From a virus: a stretch of DNA of 43,056 nt. The DNA lies in the IMG/VR virus record IMGVR_UViG_3300050821_003058, positions 1 through 43,056 of that record. One strand, 5' to 3'. The notes beneath the pieces are model-generated. The model was given only the letters and a program-made list of their open reading frames with translations. It searched no databases and was not told where the DNA came from. The translations under genes were made by a program, and so were the position numbers. Every line of letters starts with the position of its first letter. The stretch's first letter is position 1. Below, in pieces: positions 1 through 43,056 of the stretch.

Positions 1-98
1 AAGCCCATCGCCGCGAGCGAAGCCACCACATCCGCCGACGGCCGGCGCACCGTCACGATCCGCGCGTCGGGCCGGTATGCCGTGAGCCATCGCCAGAA
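1..98. repeat. Terminal direct repeat (left copy), circular overlap
   Basis: These 98 bases are identical to 42959-43056. The repeat sits inside one coding sequence, and joining the two copies closes that gene in frame (281 + 781 nt = 354 codons). This is what an assembler leaves when a circular or circularly permuted molecule is written linearly. A true short terminal repeat of a linear virion would more often lie between genes. It implies a 42,958 bp genome. Confidence 0.95.
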
Positions 99-281
99 CG
101 GCGCGGCGGTGGTCTCCACCGTCCCGGTGCACGGCTGGTTGAGCCACGAATGCAGGTCATCGAGGGAGCGGCAATGCCGCGCCTCGTCGTGCCCGCAGAC
201 CCACTCGCGGTAGGTCAGGAACCTGGACAACCAGGCGGTGCGCGACCGCGGCAGCGCCAGCACGACAAAGGGACCGCTCAT
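1..281 (-). CDS. Sulfotransferase-like / GNAT fusion protein, N-terminal part (continues at 42178-43056)
   Basis: This is the first 93 or so codons of a 353-residue gene that is cut by the window edge and resumes at 42958 reading down to 42178. The ATG at 281 overlaps the TGA of the preceding fibre gene (ATGA). Residues 8-22 contain LPRSRTAWLSRFL, which resembles the 5'-phosphosulfate-binding loop of PAPS-dependent sulfotransferases. Residues 77-89 (TVRRPSADVVASL) resemble the 3'-phosphate-binding motif with its Arg and Ser. The rest of the protein, described at 42178-43056, ends in a GNAT-like domain. Its place between tail-fibre and ejection-protein genes suggests late expression. The substrate is unknown: surface glycan or a virion component are guesses. 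The sulfotransferase fold call is moderately secure; activity is not shown. Confidence 0.75.
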   Translation of the reverse strand, partial: MSGPFVVLALPRSRTAWLSRFLTYREWVCGHDEARHCRSLDDLHSWLNQPCTGTVETTAAPFWRWLTAYRPDARIVTVRRPSADVVASLAAMG

Positions 282-796
282 CGCATCCGCCGCGCGCTGG
301 CCGTGCCCTGCACCGTCACCGTGCCGGAGGAGAACGTCGCCACCGCCACCAGATGCACCGCCGTCGCCGCGCTCACGTTGTAGCGCTTGCGCGGCACGCC
401 GATGCCCTGGGTGATCGCTCCGGTGGGGAACGACGACTGGTTCAGAATGATGATGGTATCCAGCCCGGCACCGAACGATGTGTGCGTCCCGGCACCCGCG
501 CTGAACGACACCGACCCCGAGACATCCCAGTCGCCCGCCGTCAGGTTCAGCGTGGCCACGGTGGCGTTGGTGTTGTTGGTGAGGCTCACCCCTCCGCTGG
601 TGGCGGTCATATATTCACCGGGGGCGCCGGCCGTCGCGTCGGAACCGTCGGTCACGCCGGTCGTGGCGGCGGCGACGGCGTCGCTCATAGCCTGATGGTA
701 ATCGCGCCACGCCTTGGTGTGGCCGCCGGTATCGGCGTTGATCGGCACCTCGTTGTTGGGCGGCACCGGCGGGGCGGGGCTGAGCGTCGCGGGCAT
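278..796 (-). CDS. Short fibre-like / tail appendage protein
   Basis: The protein has 172 residues. The start at 796 is chosen because its ATG overlaps the TGA of the gp10-like gene by one base (TGATG). The N-terminus is Pro-rich, followed by a helical stretch with an HTKAWRDYHQAM segment. From about residue 60 it has a beta-rich, Thr/Ser/Gly-rich domain with TAGDWDVSGSV. That domain matches the C-terminus of the 615-residue fibre at 4471-6318 (TAGDWDVRATV); both proteins end in ARRMR. The shared domain suggests a receptor-binding or trimer-tip module used on two appendages. No enzymatic motif is visible. It is probably co-translated with the next gene through an ATGA overlap. Confidence 0.7.
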   Translation of the reverse strand: MPATLSPAPPVPPNNEVPINADTGGHTKAWRDYHQAMSDAVAAATTGVTDGSDATAGAPGEYMTATSGGVSLTNNTNATVATLNLTAGDWDVSGSVSFSAGAGTHTSFGAGLDTIIILNQSSFPTGAITQGIGVPRKRYNVSAATAVHLVAVATFSSGTVTVQGTASARRMR

Positions 797-2262
797 CAGC
801 TGAACGCCGCCTGCGACGTCTCGACGAAGGCGTCGACCGCGTAGAGCGTGGCGCGCCCGCTGGTGGTGATCCGGAACACCCGGTCGCGGAACGAGCCGAG
901 CCGCGTGGTGTAGACGCGCTGGCGATACTGCCCCGAGGCCCCGCCGCTCATGGTGCGCGTGCCGGTCCAGGTAATGCCGCCGTCGTCGGACCATTCCAGC
1001 GTGACGGGCCCGACCGGCGGCGTGGAGCCCACCTCCATCTCGACCTCGAGGCGGTGGCAGAACCCGCGCTGGGTGCCGGCAAAGAGCGGCGGCAGCGTGG
1101 CCTGGCGGAAGATCGGAACGCCGCTGTCGGTCGTGCCGAGGGGATTGAGCGAATAGATGTTGCCGCTGGTGTCGCCGGCCAGGGGATCGTTGTTGACGGT
1201 GCCGGTGCAGGTCACGCGCCAGCGTCCCGTGCCGTCCACGCCCGAGGAGCGGTCGTGCCAGAACTGCGTGCCGGCGTCGTAGACCACCGTCCGGGTGCCG
1301 CCGAGGGTGAGCGCATAGAATGCGTGGCCGCCGTGCATGTAGGCCGCGGCCGACGCGGTATCGGCCCCGGCGGCATCGATCATCGCCTCGATCGCGTGGG
1401 TGGAGACGCGCTGCGGCTGGTAGCCCTGGCTGCGGAACACGACGCCCTCGGGCGCCACCCACCAGACCGAGCCGTCGACGCGCGCCACCGACTGCGGGAT
1501 GACGCCGTAGGGGATGACGCCGCCGGACTGGCGGCGGAACGGGAAATCGGCCTTGCCGGCGTCATACCAGATTTCGATCGCGGCCCGCCCGAGCAGCCAC
1601 AGCTCGTTGCGGTGCCACAGGGCTTTGAGCAGGATGTTGTCCATGCCCTCGACGTTGGCGAAGTCGAGCGCGTCCCATGAGTTCGGGTTCTGCAGCCCGG
1701 AGACGTTGAACGTGGTCCCGCGACCGGATTGCGTGGCGACGAAATAGCCGTCGATGAAGGTGATGGAGTTCGCCCCGCCGGACGGGAAATTGGTCATATC
1801 AACGGGCGTCAGGACGTTGGTCCCGTGCGGTGCCGTGAACAGGTTCGGCGGGCTGCAGATCACCACGGCGAACGGCGAGACGGCGATCGAGATCATCGGG
1901 TAATTCGCCGGCCAGGTCGGCTCGACCGGCGAGCCGACGACGCCGAGGTCAAACGTGCCGTTCTCGTCGTTGCGGTAGGCGTGCCAGCCGGAGACGGCGT
2001 AATACCCGCCGATCAGATCCACGTTGAGCGCCGCGACCGGACCGCCGGCGGGGAAGCTGGTCACCCAGTCGAGCCCGGCGGTGGGAACGAGCGCGATCGG
2101 GGTGCGCGCGTCCTGCGGCTGGCTCTCGGCCATGACGTTCAGCAGCCGCTTGGCCGAGAGCGGCACGGAGAGGTGCTGGTAGCTCTCGGTCGGGAACGGG
2201 ATGCGCTTCATCGCCGCCTTGGGCGCGAGCGCGGTGCGCAAACTGGCGAGGCTGTCGCTCAT
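796..2262 (-). CDS. P22 gp10-like packaged-DNA stabilization / tail hub protein
   Basis: The protein has 488 residues, close to the length of P22 gp10 (about 470). It begins with a conserved-looking front in which the coat-tail contact region (IPFPTESYQHLSVPLSAKRLLNV) is followed by several beta-propeller-like repeats. These include FIDGYFVATQSG, LWHRNELWLLG, ARVDGSVWWVAPEG and GGHAFYALTL, a pattern seen in gp10-family tail accessory factors. In that family the protein closes the portal vertex after packaging and holds the needle. The neighbours are fibre and spike genes, as expected for a short-tail module. The assignment rests on pattern and gene order, not a search. Confidence 0.75.
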   Translation of the reverse strand: MSDSLASLRTALAPKAAMKRIPFPTESYQHLSVPLSAKRLLNVMAESQPQDARTPIALVPTAGLDWVTSFPAGGPVAALNVDLIGGYYAVSGWHAYRNDENGTFDLGVVGSPVEPTWPANYPMISIAVSPFAVVICSPPNLFTAPHGTNVLTPVDMTNFPSGGANSITFIDGYFVATQSGRGTTFNVSGLQNPNSWDALDFANVEGMDNILLKALWHRNELWLLGRAAIEIWYDAGKADFPFRRQSGGVIPYGVIPQSVARVDGSVWWVAPEGVVFRSQGYQPQRVSTHAIEAMIDAAGADTASAAAYMHGGHAFYALTLGGTRTVVYDAGTQFWHDRSSGVDGTGRWRVTCTGTVNNDPLAGDTSGNIYSLNPLGTTDSGVPIFRQATLPPLFAGTQRGFCHRLEVEMEVGSTPPVGPVTLEWSDDGGITWTGTRTMSGGASGQYRQRVYTTRLGSFRDRVFRITTSGRATLYAVDAFVETSQAAFS

Positions 2263-16633: not shown

Positions 16634-17879
16634 TTATGCCGCCACCGGCTGGGGCACGCGCTCGGCGGCGAGGTCGGCGAAGGTGCGGCCTGGCTCAGCT
16701 GCGAGCGTCGCTGTGCCGCCAGCGAACGCCTGCCAGCGCAGCACGGCAACGTCGACGTATGCGGGCGATATCTCGATGGCGTGGCAGGCGCGTCCGGTCA
16801 TCTCGGCGGCGATGATGGTGGGTGCCGGAGCCGACGAACGGGTCGTACACCGCCTGTCCGGCGCTGGAGTTGTTCTCGATCGGGCGGCGCATGCACTCGA
16901 CGGGCTTCTGGGTGCCATGACCAGTCTCCGATGCACGCTGCTTGTCGATGTCCCACACCGTGGATTGCTTGTGGTCTCCATGCCACTGCGCGGTGCTACC
17001 TTTGCGCACGGCGTACCAGCAGGGCTCGTGCTGGAAATGATAGTGCCCGCGAGAGATGACGATATGGCCCTTATTCCAGATGATCTGCGCGCGCATTTCA
17101 AACGCGGCGGCTTCGAGGCTTTCGACGACCTCTCTGGCATGCAGACCTGCATGCCAGACGTATGCGATTGATCCAGAAAACAATGCCCACGCTTCGCGCC
17201 AATCCGCCCGATTGTCGTTGGTAACTGCTCCGCGACGCGCAGACGACAAGCCGCGATCAACGCGCCACTCGGGATCGTAGTTTGTGCCATACGGCGGATC
17301 GGTGACCATCAGGTGCGGCTTCACGCCGGCCAGCGCGAGCGACACGTCGACCTCGCTCGTCGCATCGCCGCACACCAGCCGATGCCGCCCGAGCAGCCAC
17401 ACATCGCCGGCGCGCGATACCGGCTCGGCCGGCGTCTCCGGCACATCGTCGGGATCGGTGAGGCCTGAGGTGGGCTCCGCGAGCCATGCGGCCATCTCGT
17501 CGTCGGAGAAGCCCACGAGCGAAAGATCGAAGCCGGCGGCACCGAGTTCTCCCAGCTCCAGCCTCAGAGTTTCCGCGTCCCATCCCGCGTTGAGGGCGAG
17601 CTGGTTGTCGGCGATGGCGAGCGCGCGCTTCTGATCGGCGCTGAGGCCGGCGAGCGTGATGGTGGGAACTTCGGCCATGCCGTGCTGCTTGGCGGCCTCG
17701 AGGCGGCCGTGGCCGGCGATGATGGCGTTGTGCTCGTCGACCAGGATCGGGTTGGTCCAGCCGAACGCCTCGATGGAGCGGCCGATCTGTTGCACCTGCG
17801 CGGCGCTGTGGGTGCGCGCGTTGCGTGCTGCGGGCCGCACCGAGGCGATGGAGCGATAAGTGATGGCGAGCTGGTTCAT
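16634..17879 (-). CDS. ParB-domain DNA methyltransferase, interrupted by a frameshift in motif I
   Basis: The N-terminus (1-90) is a ParB-like domain with NPILVDEHNAIIAGHGRLEAA. The methyltransferase catalytic motif IV DPPYG lies at 194-198, and TGHGTQKPVE is at about 319-328. At the SAM-binding motif I the frame reads DPFVGSGT, and one extra base (G run at 16820-16822, ACCC on the coding strand) then shifts it to a nonsense tail ending at 16695. Dropping that base restores TTIIAAEMTGRACHAIEISPAYVDVAVLRW and a natural end at 16634, giving 414 residues. Such N6A/N4C enzymes usually protect phage DNA from restriction. The shift may be an assembly error, a true mutation or recoding. Confidence 0.85.
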
Positions 17880-36809: not shown

Positions 36810-38906
36810 CTAGGGCGCTGCACCCGTCCCCAGCCCGTTGCGCAGCTCCATCCCGCGCTTAAGGCGCTGGGTCATTGCCCGCTCCGAAAACAGGTGATTG
36901 ATCAGCGTGCCGGCACCCACTCCGATCGCTGCACCGGCCCCGGGAATAGGTATCAGGACACTGCCCAGCGCGGCGCCGACCCCAGGCGCTGACGTTTGCA
37001 TCGCCGTCCGACCGGCGGCTCGCATCGCGTCGCCTAAGTTCTGCGAGGTGGGCGAGCCCTTGGGCTGAGCCAGCCGATCTGCCGCCGCTGACCGGCGCAT
37101 GCTGTCGCGGATGTTCCAGAGCTGGTCGAGCGTGTCCTGCGTCACGTGGGTGAACGGGTCGTAAGGATCATTGGCCTGGCGGGCATCGATAATGCGCCGC
37201 ATCAGGTTCTGGACCGAATTGTAGTTCGGCTTGTTCTGGCTATCGAATAGCTTGAACCGCTCGGCGTTCAGCGCATCCATGGCGTCGATCTGCTGCGAGC
37301 GCGTGCGGTAGTCGTCCCGCAGCTGCGCTTTGTATCCCGGTGCCGCCGCCTCGATCTGATTGTCGATGGAATCGAGCACACCACCAAGCACGCCAGAGAC
37401 GCGCGACAGGTTCGGATCGCTGGCATGGGCCGCGCCGGAGGTCAGGTGCTGCACATCCTGCCGGAAGCTCCACAGCTCGCGCGGGTCAACGATCTTCGGC
37501 GTGCCGTCGGCGTTCTGCAGCCGGTCTATCAGTGGTTTTACGTATTGCTGCAGCTGGGTGTTCTGCTTGTTCTTCGGATCGCTCAGCACATCCTGGATTG
37601 TCTGCACGACCGGCTGCACGTCGGCGTCGCCGGCGTTGGCGAACACCTTCGGCTCGGCCGCGACCATGGCGTCCTGTCTGGCTTTGGTGGCGGCCTGGAT
37701 CTGCACCTGACCGGGCAGGGCGTTGTTGATGGCGTTGGCGCGCAGGGTGTTGTTGTGGGTTTCGTCCGCCGTCAGCGCGGCATCGAGTTCCGGTGTCTGC
37801 TGGCGCAGTGACTTCAACTCACGCGCGATCTGCACGTCCTGGCTGGCCTCGGCCTCGTTGAACTTCTCTCCGGGCAGGTATTGCGTGGTGTCGCGCACCC
37901 CAGGCTCCTGGGGTTCGAGCAGTTTGTTGCCCTCTGCCGTGGACCTGTAGGCGGCCTCCTCCTTCGGGGTTATTCCCAACTCAGCCCCAGGCGTGACCTG
38001 CGCGCCGGCAGCCCCGGCCTGTGGTTCCGGTGCCGCTCCGGGTTGCGACTGTGTCGGCGCCGCGGCGCCTGGCGGCGGTTGAGGTACCTCCGGCCGCGTC
38101 ACTGGAATGCCGGTTGGCGATGTCTGGACATCAGTGGGAGCCGGGTGGAATGGCGTCGGGGTGCCAGGCTTCTGCGGCACCGGCTCAGTCGGCGGCGTAG
38201 CTATCACGCGCGCCGTAACATCGGGACCGAGCGGGCTCTGTTGGAAATCCGGCGGCAGCGGCGCCTCTCGGGCCGCCAGGCCGGGCGGGACAGGCTCGCT
38301 GCCAAACCGCAGATCGCCGGGCCGCAAGAGCGAGGTGCGCGGCGCGAACGGGTTCGGATTGCCTGCCGCGATACCAAGCATCGCCAGCGTAGCCTCCGGG
38401 CTAACTTTGCCCGCTAGCGGCGCATTCGGTCCGCCGACGCTGGTGGCCTGCCCGGTCCCTTCCAGCAGGTCGAGCAATGGATTGACGACCGTGCGAATCG
38501 GGCCCCAGTCCCACTTGATACCGGCGGAAGGATCGCCCTGACCCGGTGAGACCTCCTTCGTGGCGATCGGCAGGACGCTGCTAGTCACATACCCAGGTGG
38601 TGGCGCCATGGCCGAGCGCGCTTCGGCAATTGTCGGAAAATGACCTGACTGCGGTGGCGCGGCTTGCACGTTCGGAGCGATGACGGGCGGCGCCGTCGCC
38701 GACGGCTGCGTGCCCGGGATCGCCGCGGCTGGCACATAGTCACCGGAAGAACTGACGTACCCGCCGGACATATCCGGCACTTTCGGCTTGTCCTCCGGTG
38801 GCGCGAGAGCATAGCCGTGATCGCCCTGTCCGGAGCCTGCTGCGACAGGAGCCGCTTGCCAGGCCGGAGTATTACCGACGACCGGCGCAGATTCCCACGC
38901 CGCCAC
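36810..38906 (-). CDS. Putative ejection (internal virion) protein
   Basis: The protein has 698 residues from a GTG overlapping the upstream stop (TAGTG). The first 320 residues are Pro/Ala/Gly-rich and disordered, good for passing through a portal. The rest is helical with charged patches (RELKSLRQQTPELDAALTADE, RRIIDARQANDPYDPFTHVTQDTLDQLW). Near the C-terminus is a hydrophobic Gly-rich stretch (GVGAALGSVLIPIPGAGAAIGVGAGTLI, about 655-682) that could enter the membrane. Together with the two upstream genes it resembles the P22 gp16/gp20/gp7 set. It is the last gene of the late operon. Confidence 0.65.
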   Translation of the reverse strand: MAAWESAPVVGNTPAWQAAPVAAGSGQGDHGYALAPPEDKPKVPDMSGGYVSSSGDYVPAAAIPGTQPSATAPPVIAPNVQAAPPQSGHFPTIAEARSAMAPPPGYVTSSVLPIATKEVSPGQGDPSAGIKWDWGPIRTVVNPLLDLLEGTGQATSVGGPNAPLAGKVSPEATLAMLGIAAGNPNPFAPRTSLLRPGDLRFGSEPVPPGLAAREAPLPPDFQQSPLGPDVTARVIATPPTEPVPQKPGTPTPFHPAPTDVQTSPTGIPVTRPEVPQPPPGAAAPTQSQPGAAPEPQAGAAGAQVTPGAELGITPKEEAAYRSTAEGNKLLEPQEPGVRDTTQYLPGEKFNEAEASQDVQIARELKSLRQQTPELDAALTADETHNNTLRANAINNALPGQVQIQAATKARQDAMVAAEPKVFANAGDADVQPVVQTIQDVLSDPKNKQNTQLQQYVKPLIDRLQNADGTPKIVDPRELWSFRQDVQHLTSGAAHASDPNLSRVSGVLGGVLDSIDNQIEAAAPGYKAQLRDDYRTRSQQIDAMDALNAERFKLFDSQNKPNYNSVQNLMRRIIDARQANDPYDPFTHVTQDTLDQLWNIRDSMRRSAAADRLAQPKGSPTSQNLGDAMRAAGRTAMQTSAPGVGAALGSVLIPIPGAGAAIGVGAGTLINHLFSERAMTQRLKRGMELRNGLGTGAAP

Positions 38907-41524
38907 TAGGGCTTTCTCCGCGTCTGCCCGTCAGGCCCGACGAACAGCGCACCCGACGGTAAAGCATTGAAGTCGGCGTCAGACTTTACTGTGACAGGCG
39001 CAGCCGCCTGACTTCCCGGCTGCATGGAGATGCGGTTTCCGTTGCGATCCTGCACCACGGCGGATGGCGAGGCGCGCGAGACAATATCCAGCGCCCGCTT
39101 GTATTCGTCGTCTGACAACCCCTTGGACCACTGGCTCGCCGGTTGCCCGGAGATGGCGCCCATCGCCGCGGAATAAACTTCTGGATTGCGTTGCGCGTTC
39201 CAGTCGCGATCGAATCGATTCAGAGAATCATATTTATGCGTTGCCTGAAATTTCGTCTCATTGTCCGCGAAGTGCGAAAGCGCCGCCTGCGTGTAATCCT
39301 GATTCGCCTGATTGCTGATGAGTTGCATGTCGAGGATCGACTTGTTGGTAGCGTCCTGGAGATCGATGTTCGGGTTGGCCTCCTTGAAAAGTTTGATGGC
39401 CTGATAGCCGCCGCGCGCGCCAAGCACCCCCCGCTCCTGGGTGCCGGCACCGACCAGCGCCAGCTTGGAGAATGCCTGCGCCGCATCCGATCCTGAGAGA
39501 TTGGCAGACTCCTTTTCCCAGCCGGTGACGGCTGACGGCAGCCAGCGCTGGAGAAATGACGACGCCGCCGTTCTCCAATCAGTGCCGGGGCCTGTGCTGA
39601 AACGCTGCAGCACATCCTGCATTTCCTTGATGCGGACCTGATCGGCCTGTGCCTGCCTGCCCGCCTCCGCGATGGAGCGAATGTCCTGAGCATCATTTTT
39701 GTAATTCGTCTCGGCGACCGTGTACGCCGCCGGATCGCGCTCGACCTGCTGTTGGGCCGGCGACAGGCCTTGCGTGACCTGCTGGCCGCCGCTGCCTCCT
39801 TGCGTGCCGGGCGCTCCCTGGCCACCGGCTGATGGGTCGGGAAATCCAGACGGCAGATTGCGCTCATAGACACGAACCCGCGCCTTCGAAATCGGATCTT
39901 CCACGATCGTCGGATGCCGGTACGTTTCCGCCGCTATTGCGTAACTCGCCTGCTCCTGTGGCGTAGCGGTCCCGGCAGCGACCTTGGGGCCGAGCGTCAT
40001 CACCAGCTGCTGTGCCTCAGCGTCGGCACGCTGCGCCGGCACGATCTCCGGCTTGTTGGTTCCAGTGGCGTCAACGAAGCCGGCTATGCCGGGGCCACCG
40101 GCGTTCGGATTGAACTGGTAGTTGGGTAGTGGCTTGGCCGGGTCGTCCTGCTTGCCGGTCAGGGTATGCGTCTGGACACCGGTCACCGGATCGACGCTGA
40201 CGCTATCGGCCTGCATGTAGATCTGAGCCTGGGCGCGCAGGCCAGCGGCGACTGCCTTCAGCCGGCCCGTAGGATCGGGCTGCGCTTCCAGCACTGCCGC
40301 CCGGCGGTTCAACTCCAGCGCCGCCTGCGCCTGCGGTGAGTTGAGGCCGGTTGCCAGCGGCGGCCGTGTAGCCGCGGGCGGCGCAGCTGGAGGCGCCGCG
40401 GCCGGAGGCGGTGCGAGCGGGTTCTGCGGCGACGGCGGAGGTGAGGCGGCGGCGGTCGCCGCAGGAGGTGCCGCAGGAGGTGCCGCAGGAGGTGCCGCTA
40501 TGGCGGCCGGTTTCGGCACGGGCGCCTGCGAGGTATCGTTTGGTCCGGCGAGCCCCGGATAACTCTGAGCCTGGTTAGCGAGCCACGCCTCGTCGGTCAT
40601 CGGCCCGGTGACCGGTGCGGAGCCCGCAGGAGCCCCGCCAGAGGGCGGTGGCGGGATGGCGCCTGTCGTGGCCACCTTATACGGTGCCGGCGTCGCAGCG
40701 CCGCCAGCGGGCGGCTGTGGCGGCGCGGCGGCGGTCTGCGCACCTCGCCCCGGGTTCGATGCCGCCCACGGCGTAGCGCCATACTTGTCGTACAGGGCGC
40801 CGGCTACCTGCCGCTGCACCATCCATGGCGCATCCATCGCCCGCGGCCACCGCGAGACGTCCAGACCGGCCAGCTTCCCACCCTCCTGCCAGGTGGCGTT
40901 GCGGATCTGCCAATAGCCCGAGGCGTCGCCACCCTGGGCGTTCGGCACGTTCTTGCCGGCGCTCTCCCGTTGCGCGATCGCGTCCAGCGCCTGCTCGCGC
41001 GGCATTGCCGCAACCGGGTCAGGACCGCCGCCGCCCTGTGCTGCACCACCGCCTGCCGCCGGACCGCCATACCCGGGCTGCCCCGGCAGCGGCGCGGTGG
41101 CGGCGCGGATCGCCGCATCGAACCCGGGCGCGGTGACCAACCCATACTGATACTGCTCCGGCACCGTCAGCGCGCGCGCCGCGAACGCCCGCGTCGCCGC
41201 CTCGCCGGGGTAGGCATCCGGCGCGTTCGGCAGTTTGAACCCGTTGGCGCGCGCATCGGCGATCAGCCCCGGATACGCCGCCGCCCGCGCGTTCTCGTCC
41301 GGCAACTGGAGCAGCGAGCCCGCTATCCGGCCCACCATGCCCATCTCGTTCTGGCCGAGGCCTTGTGCGCCCTGGTCGAGGAAAAGCTGATTCCGCGCCG
41401 GCGCGTATTGATTGGCGATCTGCTGCGATTGCACGTTCGCCGCCGCCGCGCCCGATAGCGCGTTCACCAGGACGCTGTCGTCGGGGAACGGGCTGGTGGT
41501 CGGTGTGAACTCGATGGTGGGCAT
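38906..41524 (-). CDS. Ejection protein with lytic transglycosylase-like domain
   Basis: The protein has 872 residues. Residues 1-150 are helical. A lysozyme-like domain follows (about 180-260): LDAIAQRESAGKNVPNAQGG with a catalytic Glu in QRES, GYWQIRNATWQEGGK and then MVQRQVAGALYDKYG. A 130-residue Pro/Ala linker (about 265-395) leads to long helices (DAEAQQLVMTLGPKVAAGT, DVLQRFSTGPGTDWRTAASSFLQ). Such proteins are injected and locally open the peptidoglycan during DNA entry. A 12-base tandem repeat codes part of the linker. Confidence 0.8.
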   Translation of the reverse strand: MPTIEFTPTTSPFPDDSVLVNALSGAAAANVQSQQIANQYAPARNQLFLDQGAQGLGQNEMGMVGRIAGSLLQLPDENARAAAYPGLIADARANGFKLPNAPDAYPGEAATRAFAARALTVPEQYQYGLVTAPGFDAAIRAATAPLPGQPGYGGPAAGGGAAQGGGGPDPVAAMPREQALDAIAQRESAGKNVPNAQGGDASGYWQIRNATWQEGGKLAGLDVSRWPRAMDAPWMVQRQVAGALYDKYGATPWAASNPGRGAQTAAAPPQPPAGGAATPAPYKVATTGAIPPPPSGGAPAGSAPVTGPMTDEAWLANQAQSYPGLAGPNDTSQAPVPKPAAIAAPPAAPPAAPPAATAAASPPPSPQNPLAPPPAAAPPAAPPAATRPPLATGLNSPQAQAALELNRRAAVLEAQPDPTGRLKAVAAGLRAQAQIYMQADSVSVDPVTGVQTHTLTGKQDDPAKPLPNYQFNPNAGGPGIAGFVDATGTNKPEIVPAQRADAEAQQLVMTLGPKVAAGTATPQEQASYAIAAETYRHPTIVEDPISKARVRVYERNLPSGFPDPSAGGQGAPGTQGGSGGQQVTQGLSPAQQQVERDPAAYTVAETNYKNDAQDIRSIAEAGRQAQADQVRIKEMQDVLQRFSTGPGTDWRTAASSFLQRWLPSAVTGWEKESANLSGSDAAQAFSKLALVGAGTQERGVLGARGGYQAIKLFKEANPNIDLQDATNKSILDMQLISNQANQDYTQAALSHFADNETKFQATHKYDSLNRFDRDWNAQRNPEVYSAAMGAISGQPASQWSKGLSDDEYKRALDIVSRASPSAVVQDRNGNRISMQPGSQAAAPVTVKSDADFNALPSGALFVGPDGQTRRKP

Positions 41525-41536
41525 GGCAGGCTCCGC

Positions 41537-42178
41537 TCAATACGGGCTGGGCACGCCGGAATAGGATGGCGTGTAGGGGCTGCCGACCGTGCCGCTGTTC
41601 AGGATGTTCGTGTTGTTGCCGTAATACTGCGTGCCGCCGGGGAAGATGCTGCCGGTGAAGTTCGGATTACTCAGCAGGCCGGAGGCCGTCGTGCCGATGC
41701 CCTTCGCGATCTGGCTGTCGATGTTGGCCTGCGCGCCGGCGGCACTCAGGTCGGTCTGCGCCTGCCCGGTCGCGGTGGTCGCGCCCAGCTTCGTGAGATC
41801 CATCAGCCGGTTGTAGTATTGGGAAAAATCCTGATTGGCCAAACCCTGGCCGAAGGTTTCCTCGCCCTTGATGGTAGCGCCCGAGCGGAGGATGCCCTGG
41901 GAAGCGGCGCCGGCATCGATGGCGCGCAGCCCCTGGCCGAGCTGCCACTGGTAGCCCGGCGACGTCTGGTAATTGCCCATCGCCTTGGTCGCCGCGTCGG
42001 GTCCGTTCAGCCCCAGCAGGTCGGTCTGCGCGCCGAGCGTCTGGGTGCCGGCCGACGTGAATGGCTGCATCAGCGCATTGGCCTGGCTCTGGCCCGCCGA
42101 AATCGCGCCCTTGCTGAGCAGGCCGCCGGCAAGGCTGCTCGCAGCCCCGATGCCCGCCACTGCCGCTGCTGCGCCCAT
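41537..42178 (-). CDS. Ejection / DNA transfer protein, P22 gp7-like size
   Basis: The protein has 213 residues. The ATG at 42178 overlaps the upstream stop (TAATG). The N-terminus (AAAAVAGIGAASSLAGGLLSKGAISAG) is a hydrophobic Gly/Ala helix. SPGYQWQLGQGLRAIDAGAASQGILRSGATIKGEETFGQGLANQDFSQYYNRLMDL (about 83-138; key SPGYQWQLGQG and GILRSG) is a conserved segment of phage DNA-transfer proteins from short-tailed phages. The C-terminus is Gly/Asn/Tyr-rich. It is injected with the genome to help form the trans-envelope channel. Confidence 0.75.
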   Translation of the reverse strand: MGAAAAVAGIGAASSLAGGLLSKGAISAGQSQANALMQPFTSAGTQTLGAQTDLLGLNGPDAATKAMGNYQTSPGYQWQLGQGLRAIDAGAASQGILRSGATIKGEETFGQGLANQDFSQYYNRLMDLTKLGATTATGQAQTDLSAAGAQANIDSQIAKGIGTTASGLLSNPNFTGSIFPGGTQYYGNNTNILNSGTVGSPYTPSYSGVPSPY

Positions 42179-43056
42179 TATGCCGCCTCCTCCAAACTCA
42201 ATCGGTAGAGCACGCCGAACTCGTCCGCGCCGAGCCGGCGATAGAACGTCCCGAGCCGGGGGCCGGCACCCCGGTGGCCGGCGCGCATCAGCACCGCCGC
42301 GCAACCCCGCGCGCGCAGCCGCGCCACCGCCTCGCGCTGCAGCCGCATGCCGAGCCCGCTTATGTCGGGCGACGCAAAGAAAATGGTGTGCTCGGCCTGC
42401 ACAACGTCCGGCGCGTCGAGCGACGGCGCAATGACGCTCACCAGGTAGCCGAACAGCCGTCCGTTCGCCCTCGCGGTCAGGCACTGCAGCGCGCCGATCT
42501 CGTCGAGCCGCCCGAACAGCCACAAATTCTTGCGGGCGTGATCGTCCGGCGACTGATCGGTCTGCGTCAGGTGTTCGCGGAACAGCGGCTCGGCGTCGCG
42601 ATAGAACTCGCCGAACGGCTCGACCTGGAACGTCACGCCGTCGAACTCGCGCGGCGCCTGGCGCATTGCGGCGATGATCCGGTGCTCGACCTGCTTCGCG
42701 AGCTTCACCACCTGCGGCCGGTGCGCCGCCATGTAGCGCACCAGGGCGCCCATGTTCACCTGGATGTTGAGCGGCGCCACCGCCTGCCACCACGCCGCGT
42801 CGTGGGCGTGCGGCAGACAATGCTCGAAGATCCTCGCACAGCCGGCCTCGGTCGCCAGCTCGTCGTAGCCCACCGACAGCACGCCGGGCACCCGCGCCTC
42901 GATCTGGTCGAGCTTGCGCTCGAGCCGGCGCATCGCCGGGCCCATCACATCGGCATCGAAGCCCATCGCCGCGAGCGAAGCCACCACATCCGCCGACGGC
43001 CGGCGCACCGTCACGATCCGCGCGTCGGGCCGGTATGCCGTGAGCCATCGCCAGAA
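42178..43056 (-). CDS. Sulfotransferase-like / GNAT fusion protein, main part (starts at 281 across the junction)
   Basis: This part runs from the window edge to the stop at 42178 and is continuous with 1-281. Numbering from the true start, residues 75-89 hold the 3'-phosphate-binding-like segment and 118-158 carry VPGVLSVGYDELATEAGCARIFE then WWQAVAPLNIQVNM, both as in short phage sulfotransferase-like proteins. Residues 200-353 look like a GNAT acetyltransferase: a beta-rich front, then SGLGMRLQREAVARLRARG (about 293-311), the acetyl-CoA loop and helix, and a final FYRRLGADEFGVLYRLSL typical for GNAT ends. I have not seen this exact fusion described. Position says late expression. Confidence 0.75.
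   Translation of the reverse strand, partial: FWRWLTAYRPDARIVTVRRPSADVVASLAAMGFDADVMGPAMRRLERKLDQIEARVPGVLSVGYDELATEAGCARIFEHCLPHAHDAAWWQAVAPLNIQVNMGALVRYMAAHRPQVVKLAKQVEHRIIAAMRQAPREFDGVTFQVEPFGEFYRDAEPLFREHLTQTDQSPDDHARKNLWLFGRLDEIGALQCLTARANGRLFGYLVSVIAPSLDAPDVVQAEHTIFFASPDISGLGMRLQREAVARLRARGCAAVLMRAGHRGAGPRLGTFYRRLGADEFGVLYRLSLEEAA
42959..43056. repeat. Terminal direct repeat (right copy), circular overlap
   Basis: Exact copy of bases 1-98. See the left copy for interpretation. Annotators should collapse one copy before counting genes. Confidence 0.95.

Follow-up and report, generated by a model that had tools for sequence, protein, structure and literature searches.

A phage protein combining a sulfotransferase-like and a GNAT domain, encoded at an exchangeable gene position whose occupant covaries with residue 2 of the ejection protein EJ1

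T7 gp13 and P22 gp14 are thought to act as dedicated assembly chaperones. The gene coding for T7 gp13 (phrog_308) precedes that of a gp14-like protein. The gp14 class forms an outer-membrane pore in T7, and the ejection proteins are mosaically conserved (PMC8954989). A lone GNAT encoded before podovirus ejection genes has been likened to T7 gp13, with its role only guessed at (PMC6775973). Sulfotransferases are also encoded by phages, and their function is unclear (PMC10580990). With respect to N-terminal processing, NatA-type enzymes act on Gly, Ala, Ser and Thr, and according to the (X)PX rule, a Pro at position 1 allows removal of the Met and blocks N-acetylation (PMC2946573).

At the position of T7 gp13, the gene described here codes for one protein that consists of a sulfotransferase-like and a GNAT half. 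The families to which these halves appear to belong are known. In the open-access literature searched, no report was found of a fusion of this type, of an exchangeable gene position before the ejection gene EJ1, of N-terminally modified ejection proteins, or of an N-terminal code.

One gene divided by the ends of the contig

The window is the whole analysed stretch of 43,056 nucleotides (IMG/VR record IMGVR_UViG_3300050821_003058, positions 1 to 43,056). Its first 98 bp are repeated exactly at its end. Closing the circle minus one copy of this repeat creates a single minus-strand frame, which runs from position 281 to 1 and continues from 42958 to 42178. The joined gene has 1062 nt, corresponding to 353 codons plus the stop. 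It lies in a P22-type gene block with the following features, given in gene order:

796..2262, minus strand: head closure protein Hc3 (P22 gp10-like; phrog_578, E 6e-75)
278..796, minus strand: small fibre-like gene coding for 172 aa, with a stop that overlaps the ATG of the fused gene (ATGA)
1..281, minus strand: 5' portion of the joined gene, comprising codons 1-93 plus two bases of codon 94; it codes for the initial half of the sulfotransferase-like domain, including the two PAPS-type motifs; assigned from the join and from read-through in homologues
42959..43056, no strand: exact 98-bp duplicate of positions 1-98, the terminal redundancy of the contig
42178..42958, minus strand: 3' portion of the joined gene, coding for the remainder of the sulfotransferase-like domain, a linker and the GNAT domain, and ending with the stop TAA
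41537..42178, minus strand: EJ1, small DNA-ejection protein, 213 aa, starting MGAAAAV (phrog_598, E 1e-21)
38906..41524, minus strand: EJ2, second ejection protein with a transglycosylase domain, 872 aa (PF06737, 27.5 bits; cut-off 27)
36810..38906, minus strand: EJ3, 698 aa, taken as the third ejection gene on the basis of gene order only; a family search gave no match

The original prediction, that the linear break splits one gene of 353 residues located between fibre and ejection genes, was therefore correct: fibre-like and head-closure genes precede it and ejection genes follow. The range 42178-43056 given there extends over the 98-bp duplicate; without this copy, the gene occupies 42178-42958 together with 1-281.

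The five homologues of the joined protein found in a first round are 60-67% identical to it and uninterrupted across the join position. Because homologues in other contigs read through the equivalent position, the join is real. A scan with an alignment as query yielded 80 loci, mostly of full length. All scans together gave 213 fused frames with at least 120 unique full-length proteins, 63 of which are less than 80% identical to one another. The proposed search for the fusion in other phages was thus successful: both domains occur in one unbroken frame in phage contigs and in an Azospirillum prophage. The latter is a prophage-type region on a contig of Azospirillum rugosum (L089), the only carrier of the fused gene among 385 genomes sampled from its class. 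Among 50,697 annotated phage records there was no close relative; the best matches to the joined protein cover one half only at roughly 23-32% identity, and the Azospirillum-type fused protein gave no match to annotated phage records.

The sulfotransferase-like and the GNAT half

The following elements were located in the joined protein:

231..254, minus strand: LPRSRTAW, residues 10-17, 5'-phosphosulfate-binding-loop-like motif, from the alignment of 86 sequences
90..125, minus strand: GTVETTAAPFWR, with the invariant Glu56 as candidate catalytic base
15..53, minus strand: TVRRPSADVVASL, residues 77-89, 3'-phosphate-binding-like motif with R80 and S88 (R-x7-S)
42337..42372, minus strand: SPDISGLGMRLQ, acetyl-CoA pyrophosphate loop of the GNAT domain, divergent in sequence

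In the 86-sequence alignment, P9, R12, W15, H29, E54, T55, W61, R62, R78 and S86 are invariant (model numbering; adding 2 gives the numbering of the window protein), and the invariant motif residues are far above chance expectation. LPRSRTAW was matched by eye to MPRSGTTL of cellular Sulfotransfer_3 proteins. The R-x7-S spacing is the same as in the cellular Sulfotransfer_3 alignment (A6). The predicted resemblance of the two motifs to PAPS-binding elements is thus upheld by the invariance of their P, R, R and S residues and by the spacing shared with the cellular members.

These motifs agree with profile comparisons. Compared to 14 cellular Sulfotransfer_3 domains, the N-terminal half was assigned a probability of 82% (E 1e-5) by hhalign, and the Arg and Ser that make up the 3'-phosphate motif are aligned. 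Against Pfam Sulfotransfer_4, the homologue at locus L010 scored 25.7 bits (curated cut-off 22.8), and L088 and L008 were also above the curated cut-off of a sulfotransferase profile; the window protein itself reached 17.6 bits and is below the cut-off. A PF17784 search of 60 genomes gave no match even in the controls and was left out of account. A profile of the N-terminal half matched SgdX2 (PDB 8y9p; E 0.0013), in which an Asp is aligned with the invariant Glu of GTVET, and weakly the sulfotransferase 5tiz (E 0.14). Biotin ligases and the designed helix bundle 9u78, which were also matched in the PDB, were regarded as chance similarities. The second match of a BFVD structure search was a phage protein named as sulfotransferase family.

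The N-terminal half shares with Sulfotransfer_4 and Sulfotransfer_3 the P-loop PRSxT, the R-x7-S motif, the FWR segment and the F/YxDL strand. It differs by a loop with RSR instead of RSG, by its short length and by the fusion to GNAT. A sulfotransferase-like fold is highly probable. The PAPS-type site appears to be intact, and we consider it somewhat more likely than not that the domain is an active sulfotransferase. The phrog_10855 'hydrolase' of Pamexvirus/Casjensviridae-type phages is homologous to this half (E 4e-12) but occurs unfused, and its gene lies outside the virion block in both of the genomes inspected.

AlphaFold, applied to 86 sequences that did not include the joined window protein, produced a confident two-domain model (pLDDT 93.9, pTM 0.83); an earlier model from six sequences that did include it had a pLDDT of 51 and was set aside. 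The GNAT domain comprises residues ~198-353. Its fold superimposes on solved GNAT structures with Z values of 14-16 over ~145 residues. The best value, 15.9, was obtained for DpA, and RimI is among the matches. The similarity to the GNAT acyltransferases (RimI, polyamine and aminoglycoside acetyltransferases) extends over the whole domain, and there is virtually no doubt that the C-terminal half has a GNAT fold. Profiles, motifs and the confidently predicted fold thus all bear out the fusion of the two domains. Of the structural comparison that had been suggested, the part concerning GNAT was positive (Z ~16), and the list of PDB fold matches for the whole model was filled by this half.

In contrast to known GNATs, the phage domain is the C-terminal partner of a sulfotransferase-like domain, and its CoA loop does not end with the customary Gly/Ala. 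Compared to the consensus Q/R-x-x-G-x-G/A, the homologues mostly contain [R/P/S]-G-L-G-M-[K/R/Q]; the central Gly is kept throughout and the final position is usually neither Gly nor Ala. Since the loop departs from the consensus, acetyl transfer by this half is likely but not certain, and cannot be assumed.

Each half also occurs alone in phages. Stand-alone GNATs (phrog_1249) precede the ejection genes of PfAn1, Vibrio Zobellviridae and cobaviruses. Those of PfAn1 and the Vibrio phages, which like some others lie directly upstream of ejection genes, share position and neighbours with the fusion and belong to the same family as the fused GNAT half (HMM E 3e-13; hhalign 98%); the cobavirus GNAT is known by report only. 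Unlike the fusion, these proteins lack a sulfotransferase half, and the EJ1 that follows them mostly starts with MV. Lone sulfotransferase relatives exist in Clavibacter phage 33 and Pseudomonas phiH1, outside the virion blocks. Versions containing only this domain occupy the position before EJ1 in L082, L087 and L088, and in L083 (8004-8831), L084 and L085 the domain is combined with another, shorter C-terminal part that was not matched by the GNAT profile. T7 gp13 shares the position, but profile similarity was not found: hhalign against five gp13 sequences gave a probability of 0.5%, and no homology of the GNAT half to gp13 was detected.

The gene position before EJ1 and residue 2 of EJ1

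EJ1 corresponds to the gp14/gp7 class (T7 gp14/P22 gp7 type) with regard to gene order and size. Its ATG overlaps the stop of the fused gene (TAATG) and is preceded by an SD-like GGAGG. In 106 of 110 measured loci, EJ1 starts -4 to +20 nt from the stop of the fused gene (median +1), and the position of the fused gene is conserved across very diverged phages. In related phages, this slot is occupied by a cupin gene, a lone GNAT gene, or sulfotransferase/Asp-hydroxylase genes. The slot cupins, encoded immediately upstream of EJ1 in L260, L273, L278 and other loci, have ~115 aa, begin with MKRAENQP, contain four invariant His and match Pfam Cupin_2 weakly (E 9e-5).

The occupant of the slot covaries with residue 2 of EJ1. 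This residue is Gly in 75 of 77 loci with the fusion, Pro in 57 of 58 with the cupin (the protein starting MPF, MPW or MPL), and Val in 23 of 26 with the lone GNAT; only profile-confirmed EJ1 proteins were counted, and the cupin and lone-GNAT loci stem from dedicated scans. Among EJ1 homologues near neither a sulfotransferase nor a GNAT gene, a control group that includes some cupin loci, Gly is found in 11 of 69. The closest relatives of the window EJ1 without the fusion (44-59% identical) mostly begin with MP and have a cupin gene ~3 nt upstream.

A tree of EJ1 was calculated without the first 12 residues. Gly went with the fusion in all eight supported independent pairs of fused and cupin loci (sign test, p = 0.008). 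Pairs of fused loci and the rest were concordant in about 12 of 13 cases, with none opposite, as were 7-8 of 8 cupin-Pro pairs; the link between lone GNAT and Val rests on four supported pairs only and is not significant. Within the fused class, the entropy of residue 2 is 0.37 bit, compared to 1.3-2.3 at residues 3-12, and all four Gly codons occur. The class is reflected best by residues 2 and 3, with 1.36 and 1.05 bit of information, compared to 0.2-0.6 bit at later positions.

The confirmed exceptions in the fused class are L076 (Pro) and L158 (Ala), whose GNAT halves are among the most degraded of the 120. The same is true for L100 and L112, where a hydroxylase gene lies in between. This pattern, recognized post hoc in few cases, suggests that Gly2 is paired with the GNAT half. 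A misfit is L026, where the GNAT half appears intact by eye and the next gene starts with MT and has no match to the EJ1 profile. Several of the unconfirmed exceptions are start-calling errors: automatic calls gave a wrong residue 2 in some loci, and L029, L021 and L061 read MG, as does L072 from a GTG. A leader peptide on some EJ1 proteins following lone GNATs was considered and dismissed, as these cases are better accounted for by starts at GTG or by a probable single-nucleotide deletion. An apparent single-base deletion just 3' of the EJ1 start codon was seen in the contig of L437.

Possible roles of the fused protein

The original prediction had named host glycans, a virion protein or a small molecule as possible targets. 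Because the gene is coupled to EJ1 and the N-terminal residue of EJ1 covaries with the enzyme in the slot, modification of the virion is favoured. From this coupling and from the folds and motifs we infer both the substrate and the two reactions. The fused enzyme would be made together with the virion proteins. Removal of the Met from EJ1 would expose the Gly, and the GNAT half would acylate, probably acetylate, this N-terminal residue; the MG start found in 75 of 77 loci fits a NatA-type substrate. The sulfotransferase-like half would probably transfer sulfate to EJ1 or to another virion protein. That the two-domain enzyme matures the adjacent EJ1 in this way is a tentative proposal, which we rate just short of evenly balanced. 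Since the Pro associated with the cupin blocks N-acetylation, the fusion and cupin classes may use different N-terminal chemistry. A more general and somewhat more speculative reading is that podovirus-type ejection loci hold an exchangeable maturation slot, whose enzyme finishes the N-terminus of EJ1 in lock-and-key coevolution with Gly, Pro or Val.

The slot adjoins genes of internal virion proteins, and the comparison of its lone GNAT with T7 gp13 (PMC6775973) leads to a different interpretation, namely that the slot proteins are dedicated chaperones which recognize the N-terminus of EJ1 and load it into the procapsid; the folds of enzymes would then have been reused, with catalysis being secondary or lost. 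The divergent GNAT loop is in line with this, and the N-terminal signature of EJ1 fits binding equally well. However, the active-site-type residues of the sulfotransferase-like half are invariant, the slot cupins keep their four His, and the gp13 profile has no detectable relation to the fused GNAT; we regard such a function as rather unlikely. A further explanation relies on the few bases that separate the slot gene from the EJ1 start. Because the two are physically adjacent, co-inheritance could produce the association without function: gene and first EJ1 codons would be one recombination cassette, and the enzyme would act on a host envelope glycan, a lipid, a small molecule or a host protein. 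Both the mosaic conservation of ejection proteins (PMC8954989) and the stand-alone sulfotransferase relatives outside virion blocks are compatible with this. Yet hitch-hiking alone would not keep residue 2 constant in each of the classes when residues 3-12 vary and every synonymous codon is used, nor does it agree well with the drop of class information after residue 3, and we regard it as rather unlikely, too. An enzyme of the moron type, which serves metabolism or host takeover and has no part in virion assembly, would resemble the sulfotransferases of unclear function elsewhere in phage genomes (PMC10580990), but is very improbable in view of the tight overlap with both neighbours and the position retained across very diverged phages.

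If maturation of EJ1 is the correct reading, virion ejection proteins would be modified post-translationally by phage-encoded enzymes, possibly also by sulfation, and DNA-ejection channels would need phage-made modifications, an infection step of which no earlier report was found. From the covariation, a concrete candidate for the substrate and for its modified site is obtained, and the N-terminal chemistry is expected to differ among three phage classes.

Two further observations concern neighbouring genes. Asp/Asn beta-hydroxylase-like genes (PF05118; E 3e-13 and 1.5e-11) recur beside the slot, some of them after sulfotransferase genes, and the EJ1 proteins that follow them in L083 and L088 also start with Pro. 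Their locations are:

L083, 8834-9379: PF05118-type gene
L088, 1879-2418: PF05118-type gene
L100, 6957-7574: PF05118-type gene
L112, 6918-7580: PF05118-type gene
L007, 7302-7991: PF05118-type gene

Elsewhere in the window, positions 16695-17879 (minus strand) code for a protein that combines a ParB-like nuclease domain with a DNA methyltransferase (phrog_498, E 2e-117).
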